A stretch of DNA of 64,000 bases from Kushneria sinocarnis (GTDB lineage Bacteria > Pseudomonadota > Gammaproteobacteria > Pseudomonadales > Halomonadaceae): assembly GCF_003633775.1 (NCBI RefSeq), contig NZ_RBIN01000005.1, positions 124,001 to 188,000 of the forward strand, read 5' to 3'. Below the pieces are notes generated by a model. The model was not told the DNA's origin, searched no databases, and saw only the letters and a list, made by a program, of their open reading frames with translations. Below are positions 15,972 to 29,170 of this stretch, in pieces (position 1 is the stretch's first letter; every line of letters begins with the position of its first letter). The position numbers and the translations under genes were made by a program.

Positions 15972-16801
15972 GCCGCCGCTCGGTTCGCGAGGCGCGTATC
16001 GCTCAGGGCGAAGCCCCGCCGCTGCAGGAAGGGGATCAGCGCGCCGTTCTCCGCACGCTCGGCGGTAAAGCGGAAGCGATGCATCGGGACAGCCGCGCCC
16101 GGCGCGGCATCGACCGCCAGCAGCATCGCCAGCCGCCGCGCCACCGGCTCGGCGGTATCCACCAGTGCCACCGACGCCCCCAGCTGACCGCGAATGGCCC
16201 CGGCCAGCAGCGGATAGTGCGTACAGCCCAGCACCACGGTATCCAGCCCGGCCGCGCGCGCCTGCAGCAGGGGCGCCAGCTCACGGGTCAGCAGCGCCTC
16301 ATCCGGCGGCCCATCGCGCATGGCCGTCTCGGCCAGCCCGGCCAGATGCTCGGCCCCCACACGAATCACCCGGCAGTGCGCGGCAAAGCGCTCGATCAGC
16401 GTATCGACATAAGGGCCCTGTGTTGTGCCGGGCGTGGCCAGCAGGCCAATCACCCCGCTGCGGCTTCGCTGCGCCGCGGTGCGAATGGCCGGCACCACCC
16501 CGATCACCGGGCACGCCACCCGCTCACGCAGTGCATCCAGCACCACCGTGCTGGCGGTATTGCAGGCGATCACGATCGCCCGGAGCGACTGCCCGGCCTG
16601 CACCCGCGCCACCAGTGAGAGGACCCGCTCGATCAGGGCATCACGCGATAACTCTCCATAAGGGAACCAGGCGTTGTCCGCGACATACAAAAGCGGCAGC
16701 GCCGGGCAACGCCGCTGAATGGCCTCGGCAATGGTCAGCCCACCCACGCCGGAATCGATCAGCAGCACCACGCCGGCCTGCCCCGGTTCACTGCTTGTCA
16801 T
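15659..16801 (-). CDS. murI: Glutamate racemase with an abnormal C-terminal extension
   Basis: It makes D-glutamate for peptidoglycan. The MurI core is complete: LLIDSGVGGLTI, the first catalytic Cys in IACNTAST and the second in GCTHYPLLAG. The core ends near HRFRFTAERAENGALIPFLQRRGF at about 16000, a normal length of about 270 aa. No stop follows; the frame stays open for about 110 more codons of Ala/Ser/Arg-rich sequence antisense to the dehydrogenase gene, overlapping it by 313 bases. This is probably stop loss. The start is uncertain: ATG 16801 fits the family length, ATG 16843 is in frame, and neither has a well-placed ribosome site. Confidence 0.85.
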   Translation of the reverse strand: MTSSEPGQAGVVLLIDSGVGGLTIAEAIQRRCPALPLLYVADNAWFPYGELSRDALIERVLSLVARVQAGQSLRAIVIACNTASTVVLDALRERVACPVIGVVPAIRTAAQRSRSGVIGLLATPGTTQGPYVDTLIERFAAHCRVIRVGAEHLAGLAETAMRDGPPDEALLTRELAPLLQARAAGLDTVVLGCTHYPLLAGAIRGQLGASVALVDTAEPVARRLAMLLAVDAAPGAAVPMHRFRFTAERAENGALIPFLQRRGFALSDTRLANRAAAQGTGVTSASPASKACRLRITSAMVASSALGERPAVCGVRMIDSSASTSSGTSGSPSITSSPAEAMRRSRMAATSASVSTTLPRPMLISTPLAPRAVSIASSTR

Positions 16802-16978
16802 CTCCGCGTTGGCCCTGTGTGGATTCACAAGAATTCGGGGCATTATCGCTCATCGGCATGCCAGTAACATGATCGAGCTCAATCTCTCGTCTCAAGGAGA
16901 CCTGAAGCAGGGGCCGATTGATAAGCCAATCTGCCAGGGAGAGAAGAGCCCCGTGGCGATGCCAACCCAATGCTCTCG

Positions 16979-17356
16979 TTAATGCAGCAAGCCCTCGGAC
17001 CAGAGCGCAATGACCACATCCATTTGTCCATTGTGCGCCTTGTGCTCGGGGCCACAGGCCCTGACCCACAAGGTACGCCTGTCATCGACAAGGCCATGGT
17101 CGCCCTTCAACAATCTGAACAGCTCAAGGGCATAGCGTTTGTTCCTTTTGGATGTGGTGTAACTGCCTGAAGGAATCCCCTGAATATGCCCCTCTTCCGC
17201 CAGGCCCAGAAACGCGCTCTTTGGACAACCTTTCTTGATGGCTGCCACACGATCGACAAACTCGTTTTCAGCGGCCCTCTGCCACGCATTGACCGGGTCG
17301 ACCCCGGACTGGGCCATGTACACGGCTTCTGTAGCCACTTTCCCATATCGCCTCAT
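16979..17356 (-). CDS. DUF6979-family protein of unknown function
   Basis: 125 aa, soluble, no signal or membrane segment. The pattern MRRYGKVATEAVYMA, NAWQRAA, KKGCPKSAFLGLAEEGHIQGIPSG and RNKRYALELFRLL matches the small DUF6979 family. No biochemical role is known to me. It reads toward murI with a 135-base gap and is divergent from the GntR regulator at 17624. The AT-richer upstream stretch (17357-17600) is unlike its neighbours, hinting at an acquired gene. Confidence 0.7.
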   Translation of the reverse strand: MRRYGKVATEAVYMAQSGVDPVNAWQRAAENEFVDRVAAIKKGCPKSAFLGLAEEGHIQGIPSGSYTTSKRNKRYALELFRLLKGDHGLVDDRRTLWVRACGPEHKAHNGQMDVVIALWSEGLLH

Positions 17357-17614
17357 TTTTTCTCCTTGTTCAGTTACCGGGCTACAACCTCCTTTGAAAG
17401 TTTTTTCAGAGTATGTTTACAACGCCTGGTCAGCCATGCCGTTTCTTTCACTCATTCGAGCTCGCTGCCCATCACCAACGCCCTTCTCAGTTGAGATCTT
17501 TGCATTTTTTGCACATCCAACCGACTTCCTGCCTTGTTTTATACATCTGGAATCCTGACTGCTTCGACCAAGGGCTGATCGACGAATGTCCAAGTGCCGG
17601 AGACAGGCTGGCAC

Positions 17615-17645
17615 TGTACAAGTATGTACATGAACAAACATGTAC
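17615..17645. promoter_or_regulatory. Nested palindromes covering the GntR start codon
   Basis: TGTACA-AGTA-TGTACA (17615-17630) overlaps a perfect 7 bp dyad GTACATG-N6-CATGTAC (17626-17645). The ATG codons at 17624 and 17630 lie inside. GntR/HutC regulators bind short dyads with GTAC cores, so this is a probable autoregulatory operator for the whole operon. Confidence 0.6.
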
Positions 17646-18337
17646 GATTTGGCAAAAAGCAGCGTGTCGTCGATGAGCTGGGACGTCGTATTCGCAGCGG
17701 TGAGTGGTCTTCGGGCCGCCAGCTACCCGGCGAGCATCAGTTGGCGACCGAATTCAATGTCAGCCGCGGTACGCTGCGTCAGGCGCTGCTGGAGCTTCAG
17801 CGCCAGCAGTACATCGCGACCCAGAGCGGCGTGGGCTCCTTCGTCACCTTCGATGGTATCGCCCTGGATCAACAGCAGGGCTGGGCCCGAGCACTGGCCC
17901 GTTCCGGAGTCCGCATCGTCACCGAACTATTAAGCATTGAATGCGTGCATGACGATGCACTGGCCGATCGCGTCCACTGCAACCGCTTCGTGGAAATCGT
18001 GCGCCGCCGGCGTCTGGCCGAGGGCGAAATCGTCTCGCTGGAACGCTCTCTGATACCGGCGCGCGGCCAACTGTCCAACCTGCCGGAGCACGGTCTTCTC
18101 AACGACTCCATCACCGACACCCTGGCAGCCCATGAGCTGATAGCCGCTCGCGGCGAGCAGTGGTTGAGCATTGCCGCACTCGATGAACAGCAGGCCCAAC
18201 AGCTCAACAGAGCGACCGGGACCCTGTTCATGCAATCGACGCGTCTGACCCTCGATGCCGATGATCGTTTTGTCGAACACGTGACCAGCCTGCTCGATCC
18301 CACCCACTTTCACTTCCATCTGGCCTTTGACTCATGA
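17624..18337 (+). CDS. GntR/HutC-family regulator (YegW-like)
   Basis: 237 aa. The winged helix VVDELGRRIRSGEWSSGRQLPGEHQLATEFNVSRGTLRQALLELQ (about 13-57) is followed by a UTRA ligand domain ending HVTSLLDPTHFHFHLAF. It would sense a small metabolite and control this operon. Starts at 17594 (GTG), 17624 and 17630 are all in frame; only the last two give the family N-terminus, and they sit inside a palindromic operator with no clear ribosome site. Overlaps the next gene by four bases (ATGA), so it is co-transcribed with it, as a local regulator. Confidence 0.86.
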   Translation: MYMNKHVRFGKKQRVVDELGRRIRSGEWSSGRQLPGEHQLATEFNVSRGTLRQALLELQRQQYIATQSGVGSFVTFDGIALDQQQGWARALARSGVRIVTELLSIECVHDDALADRVHCNRFVEIVRRRRLAEGEIVSLERSLIPARGQLSNLPEHGLLNDSITDTLAAHELIAARGEQWLSIAALDEQQAQQLNRATGTLFMQSTRLTLDADDRFVEHVTSLLDPTHFHFHLAFDS

Positions 18338-19371
18338 CCGACTCCCTTGCTGACTCTGATCTGCGTCGCCGGGCGCTGGGGGCCTTTTACGGCCTGGCCC
18401 TGGGCGATGCGCTGGGCATGCCGACCCAGTCCTTCAGTCGCGCCGACATCATCAGCCGCTTTGGCTCGATCGATACGCTCCATGACGGGCCGGCGGATCA
18501 ACCGATTGCGCCCGGCATGCCTGCCGGCTCGATCACCGACGATACCGAACAGGCCGTACTGGTGGCAGAACTGCTGATCAACGGCAAGGGCCACATCGAA
18601 CCCGTGGCCTTCGCCCGAGCCCTGACCGACTGGGAAGCCGACATGAAGGCCCGGGGGTCACAGGATCTGCTCGGCCCCTCCACCAACCGGGCGCTGGCCA
18701 TGATTGCCGAAGGTATCAGCCCCGAGCAGAGCGGCCGGTTCGGCACCACCAACGGTGCTGCCATGCGTATTACGCCAGTCGCCATCGCCACTCCGGCAAC
18801 GCCCCGCGAAACGCTGCTCGAGGCGGTCATCGAGGCCAGCCGCGTGACACACAACACCTCATTGGGGATTGCCAGCGCCGCCGCCGTCGCCGGCGCCATT
18901 TCGGCAGGACTGGAAGGCGCACCACTGGATCAGGCATTGCGTGTCGGACACGAAATGGCTTTCCTGGGCGAGCAGCAGGGCCATTGGAGTGCCGGGGGGC
19001 TGATCTCAGCACGCATCGAGTGGGCACGCCAGCTGGTTCGGGGCCGCGATCAGGCAACGGGCATCGCCCTCATTCATGATCTGATCGGCACCTCGGTCGC
19101 GGCTCAGGAGTCGGTGGTCGCCACCTTCGCCCTCGCCGAACTCGCCGGCGAGGAGCCGCGCTCGGCACTCACGCTGGCCGCCGGAATTGGCGGAGACACC
19201 GACACCATCGCCGCCATGCTGGGCGCCATACTCGGCGCCTGTCATGGTCCCGAGGGCCTGCCTGCTGCGCTGTTAGAACAGGTCGCTCGTGTCAGTCACT
19301 TCGCGCCGGAACCTCTCGTCGACCAGCTGCTGATGCTGCGTCAACACCATGCTCCGACCCACTCAGGGTGA
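18334..19371 (+). CDS. ADP-ribosylglycohydrolase-family protein (YegU-like)
   Basis: 345 aa all-helical Mg-dependent hydrolase. The family's metal residues are intact: LALGDALGMP, SITDDTEQAVL and, late, GIGGDTDTIAAMLGAI. DraG-type members cleave ADP-ribose from proteins, but YegU-like members sit in metabolic operons and are uncharacterised. Here it lies between a GntR regulator (4-base overlap) and an NCS1 permease (5-base gap), followed by a PfkB kinase. I infer cleavage of an N-glycosidic bond of an imported ribosylated compound rather than protein de-ADP-ribosylation. No signal peptide, so cytoplasmic. Confidence 0.85.
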   Translation: MTDSLADSDLRRRALGAFYGLALGDALGMPTQSFSRADIISRFGSIDTLHDGPADQPIAPGMPAGSITDDTEQAVLVAELLINGKGHIEPVAFARALTDWEADMKARGSQDLLGPSTNRALAMIAEGISPEQSGRFGTTNGAAMRITPVAIATPATPRETLLEAVIEASRVTHNTSLGIASAAAVAGAISAGLEGAPLDQALRVGHEMAFLGEQQGHWSAGGLISARIEWARQLVRGRDQATGIALIHDLIGTSVAAQESVVATFALAELAGEEPRSALTLAAGIGGDTDTIAAMLGAILGACHGPEGLPAALLEQVARVSHFAPEPLVDQLLMLRQHHAPTHSG

Positions 19372-19376
19372 ACGCC

Positions 19377-20828
19377 ATGACCTCCAGCGAAGCCTCCTCG
19401 AAAGCAGGACAACTGGAAACACGCGGCATCGAGCCAGCACCGGAAGCGGAGTGTCATGGGCATCCGCTACAGCTGTTCTGGGTCTGGTTTGCCGCCAATA
19501 TCAGTATTCTCGGCCTGCCGTTGGGGGCCACGCTGGTCGTCTATCAGCAGCTGGCGATCTGGCAGGCGTTCATTGTTGCCGTGATCGGTGCCGGGGGCTC
19601 CTTTGCTGTCGTGGGGCTGATCTCGATTGCCGGCCGCCGAGGGCGGGCTCCCAGTCTGACGCTATCACGCGCGGTTTTCGGGGTCCGGGGCAACATCGGG
19701 CCAACGCTGGTGTCGCTGATGTCTCGACTGGGCTGGGAAACGGTCAACACCACAACGGCGGCTTACGCCCTGCTCTCACTCTCCACGATCCTGTTCGGTA
19801 CAGCGCCCACCGCGGGCGAAGTACCACTGCTGACGCTGATTTTCATTGCCCTTTTCGTGACCTGCACCCTGCTGGTCTCGGGCCTGGGGCATGCGACGCT
19901 GCTGGTCATCCAGAAATGGGCAACATGGGGATTCGGCGCACTGAACATCGTGGTCGCCCTGTTTCTGATGGCGACCATCGACTGGCAGGCCGTCGCTGAT
20001 ACGCCGGCCGCACCGCTGAGCGCCGTCCTGATAGGCATCGGCACCATTGCCGCCGGCACCGGCATCGGCTGGGCCAACGCCGGTGCCGACATGTCACGCT
20101 ATCAGCACGGTCAGGTGAAAGGCTGGAAACTGGTCCTTTCCGCCGCCGCTGGTGCGGGCATTCCATTGACGCTGCTGATCACGCTGGGCGGGCTGATTTC
20201 CGCCGGTGACGATCATCTGGCCTCGGCCAACGATCCCATTGCAGCGATCCGGGAGATGCTGCCCGACTGGATGGCCGTGCCCTATCTGCTGGCGGCCTTC
20301 GGCGGACTGCTGCTCTCCAACAACTTGTCGGTCTACTCGGCCGGGCTGACCACGCTTACCCTGGGCCTGCGCATCAAGCGGGTCTATGCCGTGGTCGTGG
20401 ATATCGTGGCCATCTTTGCCGGCTCCATCTACTTCATGCTGATCGCGGGCAATTTCTACGGCCCGTTCATCTCATTCATCAGCCTACTGGCCGTGCCCAT
20501 CACCGCCTGGGTCGGCGTGTTCCTGGTGGATCTGATCCATCGTCACCACTACTCCGGCCCGGATCTGCTCGATGTCACCCCCTCGAGCGCCTACTGGTAT
20601 CGCGGCGGTATCGAATGGCGCGCCTTTGCCAGCTGGGCACTGGCGATCGTGATCGGCTTCTGCTTCACCAGTATCGGCGTTGGCGATCATGTCTGGTTTA
20701 CCGGGGTACTGGCCGACAGCTGGCTGGGTCGCAACGGCCTGGGCTGGATCGCCACCTTCGTGGTCGCCGCCGGCAGCTATGGCCTGTTGGGCAGCGCTCG
20801 CCATACCACCTACCAGGAGGCCCGATGA
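19377..20828 (+). CDS. NCS1-family nucleobase/nucleoside permease
   Basis: 483 aa inner-membrane protein with about 12 hydrophobic segments. The start HPLQLFWVWFAANISILGLPLG and the WANAGADMSRYQ segment are diagnostic of the NCS1 (CodB-type) family, which imports cytosine, purines, allantoin, hydantoins, thiamine precursors and some nucleosides. AGGGTG lies seven bases before the ATG, which overlaps the upstream region by coupling. In E. coli the equivalent operon has an unrelated nucleoside:H+ symporter (YegT) in this position, so a purine- or pyrimidine-derived nucleoside is the likely cargo. Confidence 0.87.
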   Translation: MTSSEASSKAGQLETRGIEPAPEAECHGHPLQLFWVWFAANISILGLPLGATLVVYQQLAIWQAFIVAVIGAGGSFAVVGLISIAGRRGRAPSLTLSRAVFGVRGNIGPTLVSLMSRLGWETVNTTTAAYALLSLSTILFGTAPTAGEVPLLTLIFIALFVTCTLLVSGLGHATLLVIQKWATWGFGALNIVVALFLMATIDWQAVADTPAAPLSAVLIGIGTIAAGTGIGWANAGADMSRYQHGQVKGWKLVLSAAAGAGIPLTLLITLGGLISAGDDHLASANDPIAAIREMLPDWMAVPYLLAAFGGLLLSNNLSVYSAGLTTLTLGLRIKRVYAVVVDIVAIFAGSIYFMLIAGNFYGPFISFISLLAVPITAWVGVFLVDLIHRHHYSGPDLLDVTPSSAYWYRGGIEWRAFASWALAIVIGFCFTSIGVGDHVWFTGVLADSWLGRNGLGWIATFVVAAGSYGLLGSARHTTYQEAR

Positions 20829-21754
20829 ACCAGGTCCGTGTGATCCATACCGGCCAGGTCATCATCGACCTGGTGATGCCGATCGATCGGCTGCCTGCCC
20901 CGGGCGGAGACACCGTGGCCCGGGGGGCCACCTTCGAGGTCGGCGGCGGGTTCAATGTCATGGCCGCCGCCGCTCGGGACGGCATGACAGTCGTCCATGC
21001 AGGCGGCCATGGCCGTGGGCGTTTCGGCGACATGGCCCGTGAGGCCATGCGCCGGGAAGGCATCGAATGGCTGGCCCAGATGGATGAAACACTCGATACC
21101 GGCTTCTGTGTCGCGCTGGTGGATCAGGCGGCCGAGCGCACATTCATCACCCATACCGGTGCGGAAATCGGCCACCTCGACGTGCTGTATCGGCTCACCC
21201 CCGAGCCCGGCGATCATGTGCTTGTCAGCGGCTATACGCTGTTTCATGAGACGACAGGCAGGGCCCTGACCGAGTGGCTGGACACACTGCCCGATCAGGT
21301 CCCGGTTATATTCGACCCCGGCCCGATGATCGGTGAACTCTGCCCCGAACGGCTGGAAAAGGTCATGCAGCGCACCACGATCCTCAGCTGCAACACCGAC
21401 GAAGCACGCGCCCTGACCGATACCGATTCACTCAAGGCCGCCACAAGGGCGCTGCCCGCCAGGACCAGTGCACCGTTGATCGTGGTGCGTGATGGTCCCC
21501 GAGGGTGTCATCTGCTAATGGATGGGCACCACCAGCACATCGCCGGCTTCGCCACCCGCGCCGTGGATACCAATGGCGCCGGCGATGCGCATACCGGCGT
21601 ACTGGTAGCCGCGCTTAGCCGAGGCCAAACGCCCGAACAGGCAGCACAACGTGCCAATGCGGCGGCGGCCCTGGCCGTCAGCCGTCATGGCCCGGCCACT
21701 TCGCCTTCGGGGTCCGAGATCGACGCCTTGCTGGCCCATCCTCCATTCCCCTGA
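20825..21754 (+). CDS. PfkB-family sugar/nucleoside kinase (YegV-like)
   Basis: 309 aa ribokinase-fold kinase. The N-terminal glycine motif GGGFNVMAAAARDGMTV and the C-terminal PfkB signature DTNGAGDAHTGVLVAAL (anion hole plus catalytic Asp) are present. It would phosphorylate ribose, a nucleoside or a related sugar released by the upstream hydrolase. AGGAGG precedes the ATG, which overlaps the permease stop by four bases. It ends the operon. Substrates of YegV-type kinases are not established, so the step is inferred from context. Confidence 0.87.
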   Translation: MNQVRVIHTGQVIIDLVMPIDRLPAPGGDTVARGATFEVGGGFNVMAAAARDGMTVVHAGGHGRGRFGDMAREAMRREGIEWLAQMDETLDTGFCVALVDQAAERTFITHTGAEIGHLDVLYRLTPEPGDHVLVSGYTLFHETTGRALTEWLDTLPDQVPVIFDPGPMIGELCPERLEKVMQRTTILSCNTDEARALTDTDSLKAATRALPARTSAPLIVVRDGPRGCHLLMDGHHQHIAGFATRAVDTNGAGDAHTGVLVAALSRGQTPEQAAQRANAAAALAVSRHGPATSPSGSEIDALLAHPPFP

Positions 21755-22115
21755 GCTTGTTCATCAGGCAGCAGCTCACCGACGCCTCCTGCCACGAACC
21801 GAGGGGGCTATTACCGTGATGAGCACGCCGCTGGGAGCATTTTCCATGCCCCGGATTGCCCAGCCAACATTGGCAAAAAATCAACCTGAGCCGCCGCAGA
21901 CCTATTACGAGCCCACTCGGGGAAGCTGGATGAAAAAAGATCATGCCCCCGGGAGACCGTGAAAGGTTTGCCGAAATTCAACAGGAACCGTTGTCATTAA
22001 TGGCAGCGACGCGGGGTTGTTTTGGCCCCTGATCCGGGCATGCCGGTGCACTGCCTGATGTCGTCATCCCCTTCTCGCCCCCTTCAGGAATCGAGTAAAC
22101 CAGTGAGCCCGGGCT
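21755..22115. other. Non-coding gap of about 360 bases
   Basis: Between the PfkB kinase and the leftward tautomerase gene. Short frames only, none with coding character. No convincing terminator, repeat or RNA gene seen. Confidence 0.5.
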
Positions 22116-22484
22116 TCAGCGCTCTATAAAGCTGGCCTGGCCGTCGGCGAAGGACCAGTCGATATCCCGGTTTTCCACGATGGTGATCATCATGTTGTGT
22201 GGCTCGATACCCGGGTCGACGCTCAGCTTGTCGACCACTTGCCGGTAAAACGCTTTTTTCTGGGCGTCGGTCTTGCCCGCACGCATGACCAACGACAGCA
22301 TGACTCGATCCCCGGTGCGGGTCTGGAGCTGTAAGGCATGCTCTGCATATTCAGTGATGAGCTGATAGCGATCATCCTCGGGGAAATCGAGGGCACCAAT
22401 GGCCGCCTCATTAACGCCATTGGCCACGGCTTTTGCATACTGCGTGGATTTGCCAGCGAGTATGGCGATATTGACGAAAGGCAT
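22116..22484 (-). CDS. Tautomerase-fold protein (4-oxalocrotonate tautomerase superfamily)
   Basis: 122 aa. It begins MPFVNIAILAG, so after Met removal Pro is the N-terminal residue, the catalytic base of this superfamily. The later MLSLVMRAGKTDAQKKAFYRQVVDKL and NMMITIVENRDIDWSFADG segments fit the longer members related to MSAD and cis-CaaD. It probably tautomerises or hydrates an unsaturated keto acid; the substrate is unknown. Longer in-frame starts would hide the proline, so ATG 22484 is preferred. It stands alone; the next leftward gene upstream ends at 22652. Confidence 0.8.
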   Translation of the reverse strand: MPFVNIAILAGKSTQYAKAVANGVNEAAIGALDFPEDDRYQLITEYAEHALQLQTRTGDRVMLSLVMRAGKTDAQKKAFYRQVVDKLSVDPGIEPHNMMITIVENRDIDWSFADGQASFIER

Positions 22485-25908: not shown

Positions 25909-26910
25909 TCAATGTTCGACTGGAACAAATTCAATTTGGTCGAGAGCCGGGAGATTGTCTGGATCGTAGTTACGGACCGAGTTGCGTCGATCGTTAACGC
26001 TTCGATGTACGTTGGCAGCAGCGGGAACTTCACGCACACGTGCTCCGCGGGCCTCATATAGGAAGCCCTTCAGCGACACATGTAGCGTGTCCGCCGGATC
26101 CGGGACGAACTCGGCGACGCGATCAGGCCTGAACTGGACACCGTGCTGTTCGGCCTGCTCGATCATCCATTGCAGCGCGATGTTGGCCAACCCATCGTCG
26201 GCATAACCACCACCGACGTCTGCATGGACACCCGCGAACCACACCTGCTCAAGATCCCCGAGATCGGTGTTCCATACGCTCGGGTAGAAATCCTTACGAT
26301 GCTCGTCAATGGAAAGCGCATGACGTCCGACATCGCAGTTGTCGGCAGCAGCGCCGTAGAAATAGTCGTCTTGATGATGCGGGCCCAAGCTCTTCACCGT
26401 ATCCCAGACGCCGATGAATTTTGGTTTGCAGGTACGGCACATGGTGTCCTTGAAGTCAGTTGCAATATCGTCGTTGTCGCGTGTCAGATAGATCTCGGTG
26501 ACGTATGGGATAAGATTGTCATTATCTTGATAGAGCAGCCCGCACTTGTTTAGCATACCGGCCACCGCCTGCGCGGTAAACGCGCCGCGGCTAAATCCAA
26601 ACAGATAGACTTCATCTCCATCAACGTAGTTCTGCATCAAGAAGCGATACGCATCTAGGATATTGCGTACGATGCCGCGACCAAGGCCTTTGCCTTCAAT
26701 CACACTGGTCGCATTAGACCATAGGTTGCCGAGCCATCCCGCATCGTAGTTCGGTGATTCCTCTGGATCGAATGTGCCGACGCCTGGGTCATAGAATGAG
26801 ATCTGGTTCTCGTCGTTGCGAAGGCAATAGTACAGGCGCAACGGATTGGCCTTGTTGTGTTGGAACTTCTGTCCGGTGCCATCGCAGCAGAGCACGATTT
26901 TCTTACTCAT
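25909..26910 (-). CDS. DUF2235-family alpha/beta hydrolase (Tle1-like fold)
   Basis: 333 aa. The start KKIVLCCDGTGQKF, the nucleophile elbow LFGFSRGAFTAQAVAG (GxSxG type, about residues 109-124) and WFAGVHADVGGGYADDGLANIALQWM are the signature of DUF2235, the family that includes type VI phospholipase effectors of the Tle1 group. No signal peptide, no fused PAAR or VgrG part and no immunity gene of known type is adjacent. ATG 26910 follows AAGGGGAAATT. Base composition is lower in GC than the flanks. It is the last of four leftward genes in an accessory island and has a paralog at 36798. Substrate unknown; a lipase or esterase role is inferred. Confidence 0.82.
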   Translation of the reverse strand: MSKKIVLCCDGTGQKFQHNKANPLRLYYCLRNDENQISFYDPGVGTFDPEESPNYDAGWLGNLWSNATSVIEGKGLGRGIVRNILDAYRFLMQNYVDGDEVYLFGFSRGAFTAQAVAGMLNKCGLLYQDNDNLIPYVTEIYLTRDNDDIATDFKDTMCRTCKPKFIGVWDTVKSLGPHHQDDYFYGAAADNCDVGRHALSIDEHRKDFYPSVWNTDLGDLEQVWFAGVHADVGGGYADDGLANIALQWMIEQAEQHGVQFRPDRVAEFVPDPADTLHVSLKGFLYEARGARVREVPAAANVHRSVNDRRNSVRNYDPDNLPALDQIEFVPVEH

Positions 26911-27109
26911 AATTTCCCCTTGTGATTCGTCGCGTGCCTCTTTTATGACGTATCCCTTACAGCGCACCGCTGAATTTAAGCAGATACCAGTAACCAACCT
27001 TAGCGCTGTACTCAGCGCACGCAACCATGAAGCAGTCGGTGTGGATGCCTACGACCCAAGTCGCGCGTAGAAAGCTTTTTTGACGAGATCACGCTATCCA
27101 GCAGTCAAA

Positions 27110-27169
27110 TGGGACGTTCGTTAGCGGCCAGAAGCGACCATTAAACTCTTTCTGAAATTTAACGTCCCA
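27110..27169. repeat. 60 bp element bounded by 9 bp inverted repeats
   Basis: TGGGACGTT at 27110-27118 is matched by AACGTCCCA at 27161-27169. The interior (TTAGCGGCCAGAAGCGACC...) has no coding sense. Size recalls an integron attC site, but the arms run the wrong way (GTT inward to AAC). Nature unknown. Confidence 0.4.
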
Positions 27170-27213
27170 AGCAGAGGCAATAACGCGTAGGCTAAAATAC
27201 GGAACGAAGTTAT

Positions 27214-27234
27214 GGGCCCCTAAGTTAGGGCCCC
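27214..27234 (-). terminator. Hairpin after the small membrane-protein gene
   Basis: GGGCCCCT-AAGTT-AGGGCCCC, an 8 bp near-perfect stem 14 bases beyond the leftward stop at 27248. No T run on the minus strand, so termination is weakly supported. Confidence 0.4.
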
Positions 27235-27247
27235 ACTGACTTGGATT

Positions 27248-27532
27248 TTATATATTTTGTAAAACTTTAACCACTGCCTGCAACGAAATAGTTACTGCGG
27301 CCAATATAGCTGCAATAGAGTTCCATTTAGCCTGAATCCGAAAAGTGCCACTCATATCCCAACCATCCAAAGTCACACCGGCTAGATTTGGTTTAACACC
27401 TTTTTTCTCTGCTTCACCCTTTCTTCGTGAGACTTCCTCTTCTCGACTTATTTTAACGACACTAGCTTTTAACCAGCTTGCAGCAGACAAAAACCCAGAA
27501 ACAATCGAAGCAACTGTAAGAAAAATTTCCAT
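27248..27532 (-). CDS. Small membrane protein of unknown function (94 aa)
   Basis: 94 aa with a hydrophobic N-terminal segment (FLTVASIVSGFLSAASWL, about 4-21), a charged middle rich in Lys/Glu (ISREEEVSRRKGEAEKKG) and a C-terminal hydrophobic segment (NSIAAILAAVTISLQAVV). A hairpin-like topology with both ends in the membrane is likely. I do not recognise the family, though small proteins of this plan are common in accessory DNA. AT-rich codon use unlike the flanking genes. It lies 85 bases after the 126 aa membrane protein on the same strand. Confidence 0.65.
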   Translation of the reverse strand: MEIFLTVASIVSGFLSAASWLKASVVKISREEEVSRRKGEAEKKGVKPNLAGVTLDGWDMSGTFRIQAKWNSIAAILAAVTISLQAVVKVLQNI

Positions 27533-27617
27533 TTCAAACTTCCCGATCCTACATGATGTATAACGGCAAGCTCACCGGTGTCCTTTAGGCCATCCGCGTG
27601 ACGCACATTATTTCACA

Positions 27618-27998
27618 TTACTTGCATCTCTCCCGCTTTCTGATCAATCGAAAAAATATGTAGCCATTAAATACAAGAAGAGCAAATAGCGCATAAACCA
27701 CAAAAATATAAAGCGTTTTCCTTGGATCAAAATCCCATAACGCCAATTTGCTCGATGCAAAAATATTAAATGCTACAGGAAGATTTACATAGAACAAAAG
27801 AATGAACGATATCAATATTGGGAGCACAGCTGTCAGTATAACCCGGTCTACTTCCTCTCTAAGCCTCTGCTTAGCATGATGACCCGGTATATTTTCTTCC
27901 AAATTAATCGCATGACTTATTTTTGGCCAAGCCAGATTAAACAGAAAAGTTGCCAGTGTTAAAAGCAATCCAGATACGGAAACAATGTCATTCAACAT
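27618..27998 (-). CDS. Small multi-pass membrane protein of unknown function (126 aa)
   Basis: 126 aa. Hydrophobic segments at about 4-23, 51-80 (long enough for one or two helices) and 96-120, with a charged loop (HAKQRLREEVDR) between the first two and a basic tail RKRERCK. No family recognised. The start overlaps the end of the 190 aa gene by 11 bases and has no separate ribosome site, so the two are translationally coupled and probably act together. AT-rich. Confidence 0.68.
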   Translation of the reverse strand: MLNDIVSVSGLLLTLATFLFNLAWPKISHAINLEENIPGHHAKQRLREEVDRVILTAVLPILISFILLFYVNLPVAFNIFASSKLALWDFDPRKTLYIFVVYALFALLVFNGYIFFRLIRKRERCK

Positions 27999-28560
27999 CG
28001 TTTAGCTCGAGAACTCTGCATAAAAGAGTATACGAATCTTCGCTGATTTCATACTGACCCGCACTTCCTTTTCTTTTAGAAATTGGTTTAAATGTTGGCT
28101 CATTTTGGGTAATCAGCATGTTCAATTCATCTTTAACCACATCAGAACTGATAACGACCAAAAATATTTGGTTAGAGTGCTCAGCATCTTCCAAGACAGA
28201 CTTCATCGTATTTGCAAGTATTTCATCGAGCTTGTTTCTGAAGCGCGACACAGTGTTTTTCAGTAAGGTTTTGCTTTGACTCTGAGTGAGCTGGAATATT
28301 ATTGAAATTTGAGATTCAGTGGGCAGGCTATCGCAAAAGTAACTTTCTATGAGGTACAGCAGCCGATCCTGTTTGGCCTCATCCGCACGGCTAGGCATCC
28401 CACCTTCAACCAGCATCGTCAAATACTCAGTCAGAGAGGCCTTGCCAATTTTACTTAAGGCTTCTTGAATTGCTGCCTCTTCAATCTTGAGGGTTTTTTT
28501 AACCAGCTCTTTTTGATTCTCTTCGAATTCATCATCATCAATCTGGAAGGTGATTTCCAT
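27988..28560 (-). CDS. Acidic helical protein of unknown function (190 aa)
   Basis: 190 aa, soluble, very acidic at the start (QIDDDEFEENQKELVKKTL), then mostly helical by composition, with a Ser/Thr/Gln-rich middle (SIIFQLTQSQSKTLLKNT) and a C-terminal beta-rich part (GQYEISEDSYTLLCRVLEL). No family recognised. ATG 28560 follows AAGGAGAATAA, a strong ribosome site. It opens the leftward set of three small genes plus DUF2235. Base composition is much lower in GC than the chromosome around it, a sign of transfer. Confidence 0.7.
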   Translation of the reverse strand: MEITFQIDDDEFEENQKELVKKTLKIEEAAIQEALSKIGKASLTEYLTMLVEGGMPSRADEAKQDRLLYLIESYFCDSLPTESQISIIFQLTQSQSKTLLKNTVSRFRNKLDEILANTMKSVLEDAEHSNQIFLVVISSDVVKDELNMLITQNEPTFKPISKRKGSAGQYEISEDSYTLLCRVLELNDVE

Positions 28561-29170
28561 TTATTCTCCTTATATGTAAAAGGTATTAGACAGCGTGTTC
28601 GTTTATTAACTTGAACGCAAAACGCGTGCGCGCGTTCAAGAATGTTATGCCGCTCGCATGCAGAGCCCCTAAGAGGCACTGAAATATAAAAAATCACTTA
28701 TAACTCGGCTATATATCAGCGATCATCGTGCATGCTACATAACACCCTGGAACGCGCATGCGACCTTCCTCGGGCCACCCGCTTAGGTCGATACCAGCCC
28801 CAATTCGTATTCAACAACATCCCAAAAACAACAAAGCTCTCATGGTGTAATCAGCCATCTACTCCATCAGCCTATGGCGAAATACACACGATGTCACTGA
28901 ACGATTACATTATTTGCTTCATACATTCGTCTGAGCACGCCCCATACCGCGTACCTTTCTGCCTCCTGCCCTGCCACCGCTGCATCAACGCCTGTCCCGC
29001 CGCCCCTGGGCTTATGGCCATTACCTATCAAAAGCCCCACCCCACTGTTCCCTTTTTCAGAACACTCCCGCTCTTCCATTGCAACACCCGCTCTTTCAAT
29101 ACTGCCGGTAGCGCGGTAGCCGCCTGCGGTTATCGCCCTGATCCATAACCACAACAACAAGGGCACTGCG
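28561..29170. other. Gap of about 610 bases upstream of two divergent units
   Basis: No supported gene; an open frame at 28732-29148 lacks coding character and a ribosome site. Holds the promoter side of the leftward accessory genes and of the rightward DUF3100 gene. A dyad TTGAACGC-N13-GCGTTCAA lies at 28611-28639, just upstream of the 190 aa gene, and may be an operator. AT-rich on the left, normal GC on the right, so an island boundary falls here. Confidence 0.5.
28611..28639. promoter_or_regulatory. Dyad upstream of the accessory genes
   Basis: TTGAACGC and GCGTTCAA, a perfect 8 bp inverted repeat with a 13-base spacer, 51 bases before the first gene of the leftward set. Candidate repressor site or hairpin. 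Confidence 0.4.

Follow-up and report, generated by a model that had tools for sequence, protein, structure and literature searches.

An NCS1-type relative of yegTUVW with a predicted operator: a candidate cassette for riboside uptake and catabolism in Kushneria sinocarnis

The 64,000-nucleotide stretch of the Kushneria sinocarnis genome analyzed here (contig NZ_RBIN01000005.1, positions 124,001 to 188,000; hereafter the window) carries a four-gene cassette encoding a GntR regulator, an enzyme with the ADP-ribosylglycohydrolase (ARH) fold, a permease of the NCS1 family and a PfkB kinase. Our preferred reading, to which we give a probability of roughly 0.55, is that the cassette is a self-contained system for the uptake and catabolism of an N-linked riboside, which would be phosphorylated at its 5' position and then cleaved in a metal-dependent reaction to ribose-5-phosphate and a base. 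The substrate is probably nucleoside-like, yet not an ordinary nucleoside. Gene sets of the yegTUVW kind are already known and unexplained: the yegTUV type of operon occurs in E. coli K-12, and its gene functions were still described as unclear in a 2024 paper. What is new here is the NCS1 type with its predicted operator, a form that is not described among the listed matches from open PMC papers, judged by titles and the beginnings of abstracts.

In the proposed scheme, GntR would occupy the predicted operator until released by the substrate or its phosphorylated intermediate, the NCS1 symporter would bring the riboside into the cell, the PfkB kinase would phosphorylate its 5'-hydroxyl, and the ARH enzyme, with two metals holding the ribose, would cleave the C1-N bond to yield ribose-5-phosphate and the free base. 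In yeast, the NCS1 proteins Nrt1 and Fui1 are reported to carry ribosides (nicotinamide riboside and uridine, respectively; PMC7697741). Cleavage of an N-glycosidic bond by an ARH enzyme is reported for ARH3 acting on alpha-NAD+ (PMC8319183), and the kinase of the Salmonella sister operon is reported to take an intact riboside (PMC3161100). A salvage logic of this kind had been put forward in the first-pass annotation of the window; it is supported by the present analysis and is the best available idea. If true, it would bring the ADP-ribosylhydrolase fold into small-molecule catabolism and provide a function for an unexplained gene set of several phyla. The form found in the window makes the question testable: it is a compact set of four genes with a single predicted operator, and the matching ATP-binding cassette (ABC) type has a binding protein that can be screened for ligands; the predicted operator offers a direct way to find the compound handled.

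Linkage of the four genes and exchange of the importer

Judged from sequence, the family assignment of the four genes is certain: all four proteins exceed their Pfam cut-offs, the regulator with both its GntR helix-turn-helix and its UTRA ligand domain, and the genes are arranged as first annotated (Table 1). None of the four proteins reached the cut-off of an NCBIfam model. The permease scored 56.2 bits against the curated model TIGR00800, for which 353.1 are needed, and neither the window protein nor a 19-sequence NCS1 profile matched a PDB sequence at 0.001. The ATGA coupling described at first pass holds at two of the three junctions, 18334 (GntR/hydrolase) and 20825 (NCS1/PfkB), whereas the hydrolase/NCS1 junction reads GTGA at 19368 or, with the ATG start at 19377, is a 5-base gap. 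The regulator was found where the operon had been said to begin, but its likelier start is the ATG at 17630, because its three nearest relatives (L002, L003 and L074) lack the ATG at 17624.

Table 1. Features of the cassette and its predicted operator, in window coordinates.
Feature	Position	Strand	Remarks
Predicted operator TGTACAAGTATGTACA of the operon's own GntR	17615..17630	.	abuts probable start codon 17630
GntR family (HutC/UTRA type) regulator	17624..18337, likelier start 17630	+	PF00392 65.2 bits, PF07702 52.3 bits
ARH-fold (ADP-ribosylglycohydrolase), binuclear-metal glycohydrolase, 345 aa	18334..19371	+	PF03747 211 bits
NCS1 family permease	19368 (GTG) or 19377 (ATG)..20828	+	PF02133 169.7 bits, cut-off 23.5
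PfkB family kinase, 309 aa	20825..21754	+	PF00294 132.8 bits

A single scan of genome contigs with the window hydrolase returned 257 stretches encoding relatives, and the best 80 loci were kept, genes on the same strand within 5 kb of the hydrolase being counted as neighbors. A PfkB gene lies near the hydrolase in 79 of the 80 (the sole exception, L058, is a 3.3-kb contig), an NCS1 gene in 76 and a GntR gene in 64. The order GntR-hydrolase-NCS1-kinase occurs at 61 loci, and the others read hydrolase-NCS1-kinase (11), hydrolase-kinase-NCS1 (3), GntR-hydrolase-kinase (2), hydrolase-kinase (2) and GntR-hydrolase-NCS1 (1). The four-gene linkage is far beyond chance, and unlinked genes in relatives, named at first pass as a refuting result, were sought and not found in this subfamily. 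The set is biased to the NCS1 type because likeness to the window was the criterion of choice, and it gives heavy weight to genera that have many closely related species. Same-order cassettes span Gamma- and Betaproteobacteria and Actinomycetota, and the genera in the set include Salinicola, Halomonas, Pseudomonas, Caballeronia, Paraburkholderia, Rhodococcus, Amycolatopsis, Micromonospora, Curtobacterium and Bifidobacterium. No constant extra neighbor was seen in the 32 of the 80 loci in which one was sought.

Closer to the source, the hydrolase gene is carried by 2 of the 10 genomes from the window's genus and by 12 of the 201 from its family, and it provides the only PF03747 match in its own genome. 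The nearest homologues outside are from Pseudomonas, Caballeronia and Actinomycetota at ∼60–63% identity. This patchy occurrence, together with the distant nearest homologues, fits a horizontally moved catabolic cassette. At two places the hydrolase gene is in two overlapping pieces, reflecting either a true pseudogene or a sequencing error: Salinicola tamaricis (L074 10001-12128), where the NCS1 and kinase matches are fragmented too, and G529:C1:1863242-1864184.

Replacement of the transporter family had been offered as support for salvage, and it proved wider than claimed, taking in NCS1, YegT, ABC and major facilitator superfamily (MFS) importers. Among 398 Pseudomonadota genomes, 58 had a hydrolase match at 1e-10, DraG proteins partly included, and 20 of the 61 matched places, picked for diversity, were examined. 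Eight of these, all of family f51, have GntR-ARH-PfkB followed by an ABC importer as in Rhizobium sp. TH2, and six have YegT-ARH-PfkB with a YegW-like regulator; for the other six, whose best BLAST matches are 27–33% identical, no PfkB match to the reference set was found in the stretch. The Rhizobium and Mesorhizobium operons keep the window's gene order for regulator, hydrolase and kinase but replace NCS1 by an ABC importer whose solute-binding protein (L083 7964-9019 in Rhizobium sp. TH2) is PotD-like. ABC-type cassettes are also found on Rhizobium, Mesorhizobium and Paracoccus plasmids, the Paracoccus form with no GntR listed in the annotated stretch. In Halomonas salipaludis (L004 5342-9218) NCS1 is missing and a divergently transcribed ABC importer adjoins the cassette; the solute-binding protein of this importer shares 52% identity with its Rhizobium counterpart. 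In plasmid records from Lactiplantibacillus and Plesiomonas, the gene for an NCS1-type permease stands between those for hydrolase and kinase, and one from Limosilactobacillus has an unannotated hydrolase match followed by a permease and a kinase.

E. coli yegTUVW (yegW = ggaR) is probably a true relative of the window cassette by sequence: its hydrolase and kinase group with those of the window in the trees, and it has a GntR/UTRA regulator and an importer in the operon. It differs in its importer, a nucleoside H+ symporter as first stated (YegT, PF03825, 613 bits) in place of NCS1 PF02133, in the order transporter-hydrolase-kinase with a convergent regulator, and in a hydrolase that is only ∼33% identical. 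Locus L088, which from its annotation we take to be the Salmonella STM4065-4067 operon with its GntR gene, likewise combines an MFS transporter, a kinase, an ARH hydrolase that belongs broadly to the same group and GntR, but its transporter is of a different kind (PF13347, not NCS1) and its kinase falls outside the clade described below. This exchange of NCS1, YegT, ABC and MFS transporters is the strongest sign that different importers may serve one pathway. Additional transporter genes were seen at a few loci: in an Amycolatopsis metagenome-assembled genome the cassette is followed immediately by another, divergent NCS1 gene (L024 13414-14886), and two yegTUV-type loci have an extra gene between kinase and regulator that by eye encodes an MFS transporter (L127 8044-9330 and L128 7979-9247).

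Trees bear out the likeness to yegTUVW proposed at first pass. In a 30-hydrolase tree, the 21 cassette hydrolases and STM4067 group at 99/98, and eight ARHs without a kinase neighbor fall apart from them. In a 33-kinase tree, from which the long-branched Gsk, own_L096 and own_L097 were left out, 21 kinases from NCS1, ABC and YegT cassettes and from L. plantarum (the module kinases) lie on one side of a branch at 92/93; they are sister to ribokinase, and the Salmonella aminoimidazole riboside (AIRs) kinase, STM4066, lies outside. With the three long-branched sequences kept, Gsk was placed inside the module group, so the clade is likely rather than proven. Hydrolase distances correlate with those of the kinase at 0.92 (30 loci), of GntR at 0.63 (20 loci) and of NCS1 at 0.73 (21 loci), the last rising to 0.90 (19 loci) without L053 and L063, which have a different NCS1 in place; for each gene pair, none of 2000 permutations gave a correlation as high. 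These correlations suggest that hydrolase and kinase form the core and that the importer is exchangeable. In Salmonella, the hydrolase is paired with an unrelated PfkB kinase.

The kinase pocket and the order of the two reactions

The kinase model (predicted local distance difference test score, pLDDT, 93.1) has E. coli ribokinase as its best solved match (1rk2; Z 37.9, root-mean-square deviation (rmsd) 1.8, 296 aligned) and aligns with AIRs kinase 1tz3 at Z 35.4 (rmsd 1.9, 282 aligned). Its score against the ribokinase model TIGR02152 is 109.7 bits, where 299.65 are needed. The ribose-binding residues of ribokinase are given in PMC9604405 as Asn14, Asp16, Lys43, Asn46, Glu143 and Asp255. Asp16, Asn46 and Asp255 are kept in all 21 module kinases (the residue table omits Gsk, own_L096, own_L097 and own_L100), whereas Asn14 and Lys43 are found in none and Glu143 in two, one of them the window's own, so that the window kinase lacks the full ribokinase set. 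In ribokinase, the anomeric end of the ribose is where Lys43 and Glu143 are located. Because Asn14 and Lys43 are never kept and Glu143 only rarely, the module kinase pocket differs from a pocket for free ribose. The source genome also encodes a separate kinase with all six ribokinase residues (own_L095) and an ordinary nucleoside hydrolase (PF01156), which makes a different substrate likely for the cassette. Taken together, the pocket residues and these two enzymes favor a riboside over ribose, and one handled apart from the common nucleosides.

The proposed logic has a known parallel in psuT-psuG-psuK of pseudouridine catabolism, which by annotation also joins an importer, a kinase and a glycosidase acting on a nucleoside 5'-phosphate. 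That system differs in that PsuK falls outside the module kinase clade and PsuG belongs to an enzyme family other than ARH.

Several observations weigh against the preferred reading. The window kinase retains Glu143 in the alignment, and PsuK, an annotated pseudouridine kinase, keeps the Asn14 that the module kinases lack. The substrate of the Salmonella AIRs kinase is not transferable because this enzyme lies outside the module clade. As for transport, an NCS1 match is missing near the hydrolase in 4 of the 80 loci, two of which (L010 and L037) have no other identified importer, and the ABC-type binding protein is closest to polyamine-binding PotD (157 bits, below the 582 cut-off of that model) and not to nucleoside-binding models. 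The only effector reported in the regulator family is ADP-glucose, for E. coli YegW (PMC10819704). Finally, ribokinase is both the best structural match and the sister group of the kinase, which suits a salvage route in the reverse order, with the ARH enzyme splitting the free riboside and the kinase acting as a ribokinase on the released ribose. The retention of Asp16, Asn46 and the catalytic Asp255, and of Glu143 in the window's protein, is also in its favor, and we regard this route as possible, though we lean clearly away from it: Lys43 and Asn14 are missing throughout the module kinases, the complete residue set is found elsewhere in the genome in own_L095, the ribokinase score is 110 bits of the 300 needed, and the sister kinase of Salmonella is reported to accept an intact riboside (PMC3161100). 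Phosphorylation before cleavage is modestly favored over the reverse.

The ARH-fold enzyme and its possible substrates

The metal motifs noted at first pass are complete: T68-D69-D70-T71 (TDDT) and G286-G287-D288-T289-D290-T291 (GGDTDT) are invariant in 30 aligned hydrolases. The AlphaFold model of the window enzyme (pLDDT 95.8) best matches 1t5j (MJ1187) among solved structures, with Z 39.1 and rmsd 2.3 over 301 aligned residues, and aligns along almost its full length with DraG and ARH3 as well, at Z 32.5 to 36. Both the fold and the binuclear metal motifs of the ARH superfamily PF03747 are present.

Such likeness in fold and metal site could point to removal of ADP-ribose from protein or nucleic acid, as by DraG and ARH enzymes, with the transporter and kinase being incidental. 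Asp97, termed DraG-specific in PMC7050489, is shared by 15 of 22 module rows, the window protein among them, with Asn in the other seven; the adenine-stacking tyrosine (Tyr212 of R. rubrum) has no certain place in the alignment. We nevertheless consider such a role very improbable. The window hydrolase reaches 97.4 of the 337 bits needed for DraG (TIGR02662) and 60 of the 490 needed for Tri1, and the Glu of the DraG ExxA motif, which contacts adenine (PMC7050489), is missing from all 22 module rows (13 Arg, 6 Asn and one each of Val, Lys and Asp), a soft test because only four of seven DraG sequences carry Glu at this position and three carry Asp (the seven rows come from eight DraG loci, L147 having given none). 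A kinase is linked in 79 of 80 relatives, PADLOC gave no match for hydrolase or kinase, and, unlike DraG and ARH3, the window enzyme is encoded in a transport operon. Protein de-ADP-ribosylation is thus unlikely as the role of the cassette.

A more specific and tentative idea, which we hold with little confidence, is that the cassette serves as a dedicated pathway for breaking down ribosides that are alpha-configured or unusual in some other way, such as alpha-nicotinamide riboside or alpha-ribazole-like compounds, the ARH-fold enzyme then being a glycosidase for small-molecule riboside-5'-phosphates. It is raised because the products of ADP-ribosylation are reported to be alpha-linked (PMC7050489) and ARH3 to cleave the N-glycosidic bond of alpha-NAD+ (PMC8319183). 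If this were true, the route would have spread by horizontal transfer with interchangeable importers. To our knowledge, it would also be the first pathway of nucleoside catabolism to rest on the ADP-ribosylhydrolase fold.

An isochorismatase-fold gene found in Bifidobacterium indicum and Gardnerella may hint at the base (L053 13605-14180, L063 13787-14353 and L075 13835-14395; fold assigned by Pfam for L063 and L075). It stands after a divergent NCS1 gene, whose product is 32–34% identical to the window's, with hydrolase and kinase preceding. Nicotinamide riboside processed via a nicotinamidase was considered on this basis, but the L063 protein scored 25 bits against 174 on a nicotinamidase model, and the gene was not taken as evidence for nicotinamide. 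The Asp-x-His zinc motif of nicotinamidases was not seen in the isochorismatase-fold proteins of L063 or L053. For Bifidobacterium nucleoside regulons, the available part of PMC4746261 describes RihC/RbsK genes and does not mention ADP-ribosyl enzymes.

The predicted operator and neighboring genes

With at most one mismatch, the pattern TGTACANNTNTGTACA occurs at a single place in the 3.51-Mb genome, just before the regulator, where TGTACAAGTATGTACA is its only exact match. A control pattern read backwards gave no forward match and one reverse match, so the single genomic site is not striking alone. Its weight comes from conservation. The operator is exact in L002, L003 and L074 and in two actinobacterial loci (L016 and L024), and of the regions upstream in 63 relatives, which are not independent of one another, 40 carry it with no more than three mismatches, against 0.8 of 63 when letters were shuffled. 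In a few cases the distance is different (L027, L037 and L044), and 23 of the 63, among them nearly all Caballeronia-type loci, have at least four mismatches. Rhizobium-type loci (six tested) have related half-sites, ACAGGT, upstream with 3–4 mismatches, and no good copy was found upstream of E. coli yegT, STM4065 or the Plesiomonas and L. plantarum genes (4–5 mismatches). The conserved operator is predicted to be a self-regulating switch, probably with a single target; YegW is reported to regulate itself through a site of its own (PMC10819704).

The statement at first pass that none of these systems has an established substrate stands only in part, since it overlooks the AIRs kinase STM4066 (PMC3161100) and ADP-glucose for YegW (PMC10819704). 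In the latter work, YegW (GgaR) represses yegTUV and is freed from DNA by ADP-glucose in gel shift, and deletion of ggaR gave ∼30-fold more yegTUV mRNA and more glycogen. The window hydrolase and kinase are related to YegU and YegV in the trees, and a role in ADP-sugar or glycogen control, with the cassette acting on ADP-glucose or a related compound and its regulator sensing ADP-glucose as proposed for yegTUV, deserves mention; we find it doubtful. The importer that accompanies the cassette (NCS1 at 76 of the 80 loci) would be needless for ADP-glucose made inside the cell, although uptake of ADP-glucose by NupC and NupG, cited in PMC10819704, qualifies this objection. The gel-shift assay of that paper tried only ADP-glucose, ADP and glucose. 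Moreover, the best operator match in the yegT promoter region has 5 mismatches, and for want of a good copy there the window GntR and YegW may differ.

The Salmonella kinase raises the further idea that an aminoimidazole riboside, or a related imidazole riboside, is salvaged to feed thiamine synthesis, as STM4066 lies in an operon with an ARH gene and phosphorylates aminoimidazole riboside (PMC3161100). E. coli yegTUVW adjoins thiD and thiM, the Salmonella copy adjoins thiD, and thiD stands beside the cassette in three of six yegTUV-type loci (L126, L129 and L130). This function appears improbable for the window cassette: the AIRs kinase groups elsewhere than the module kinases, a thiD homologue (1e-15) was found in none of the 80 loci of the NCS1 set, an Rfam search of 16800-22400 gave no match, and a glycohydrolase would be expected to destroy the ribotide instead of using it.

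Scans of 17350-22120 found no sigma-70-like promoter (1.1 expected by chance) and one terminator (1.8 expected by chance). Directly upstream of the operon, and divergent from it, lies a gene for a DUF6979 protein (16979-17356). Farther along the window, G+C content falls to 0.42–0.44 at 27000-28999, compared with 0.60–0.70 in most neighboring 1-kb windows, which suggests an acquired island; minus-strand open reading frames at 27618-28560 adjoin a gene with a Tle1-like phospholipase domain of the type VI secretion system (25909-27024).

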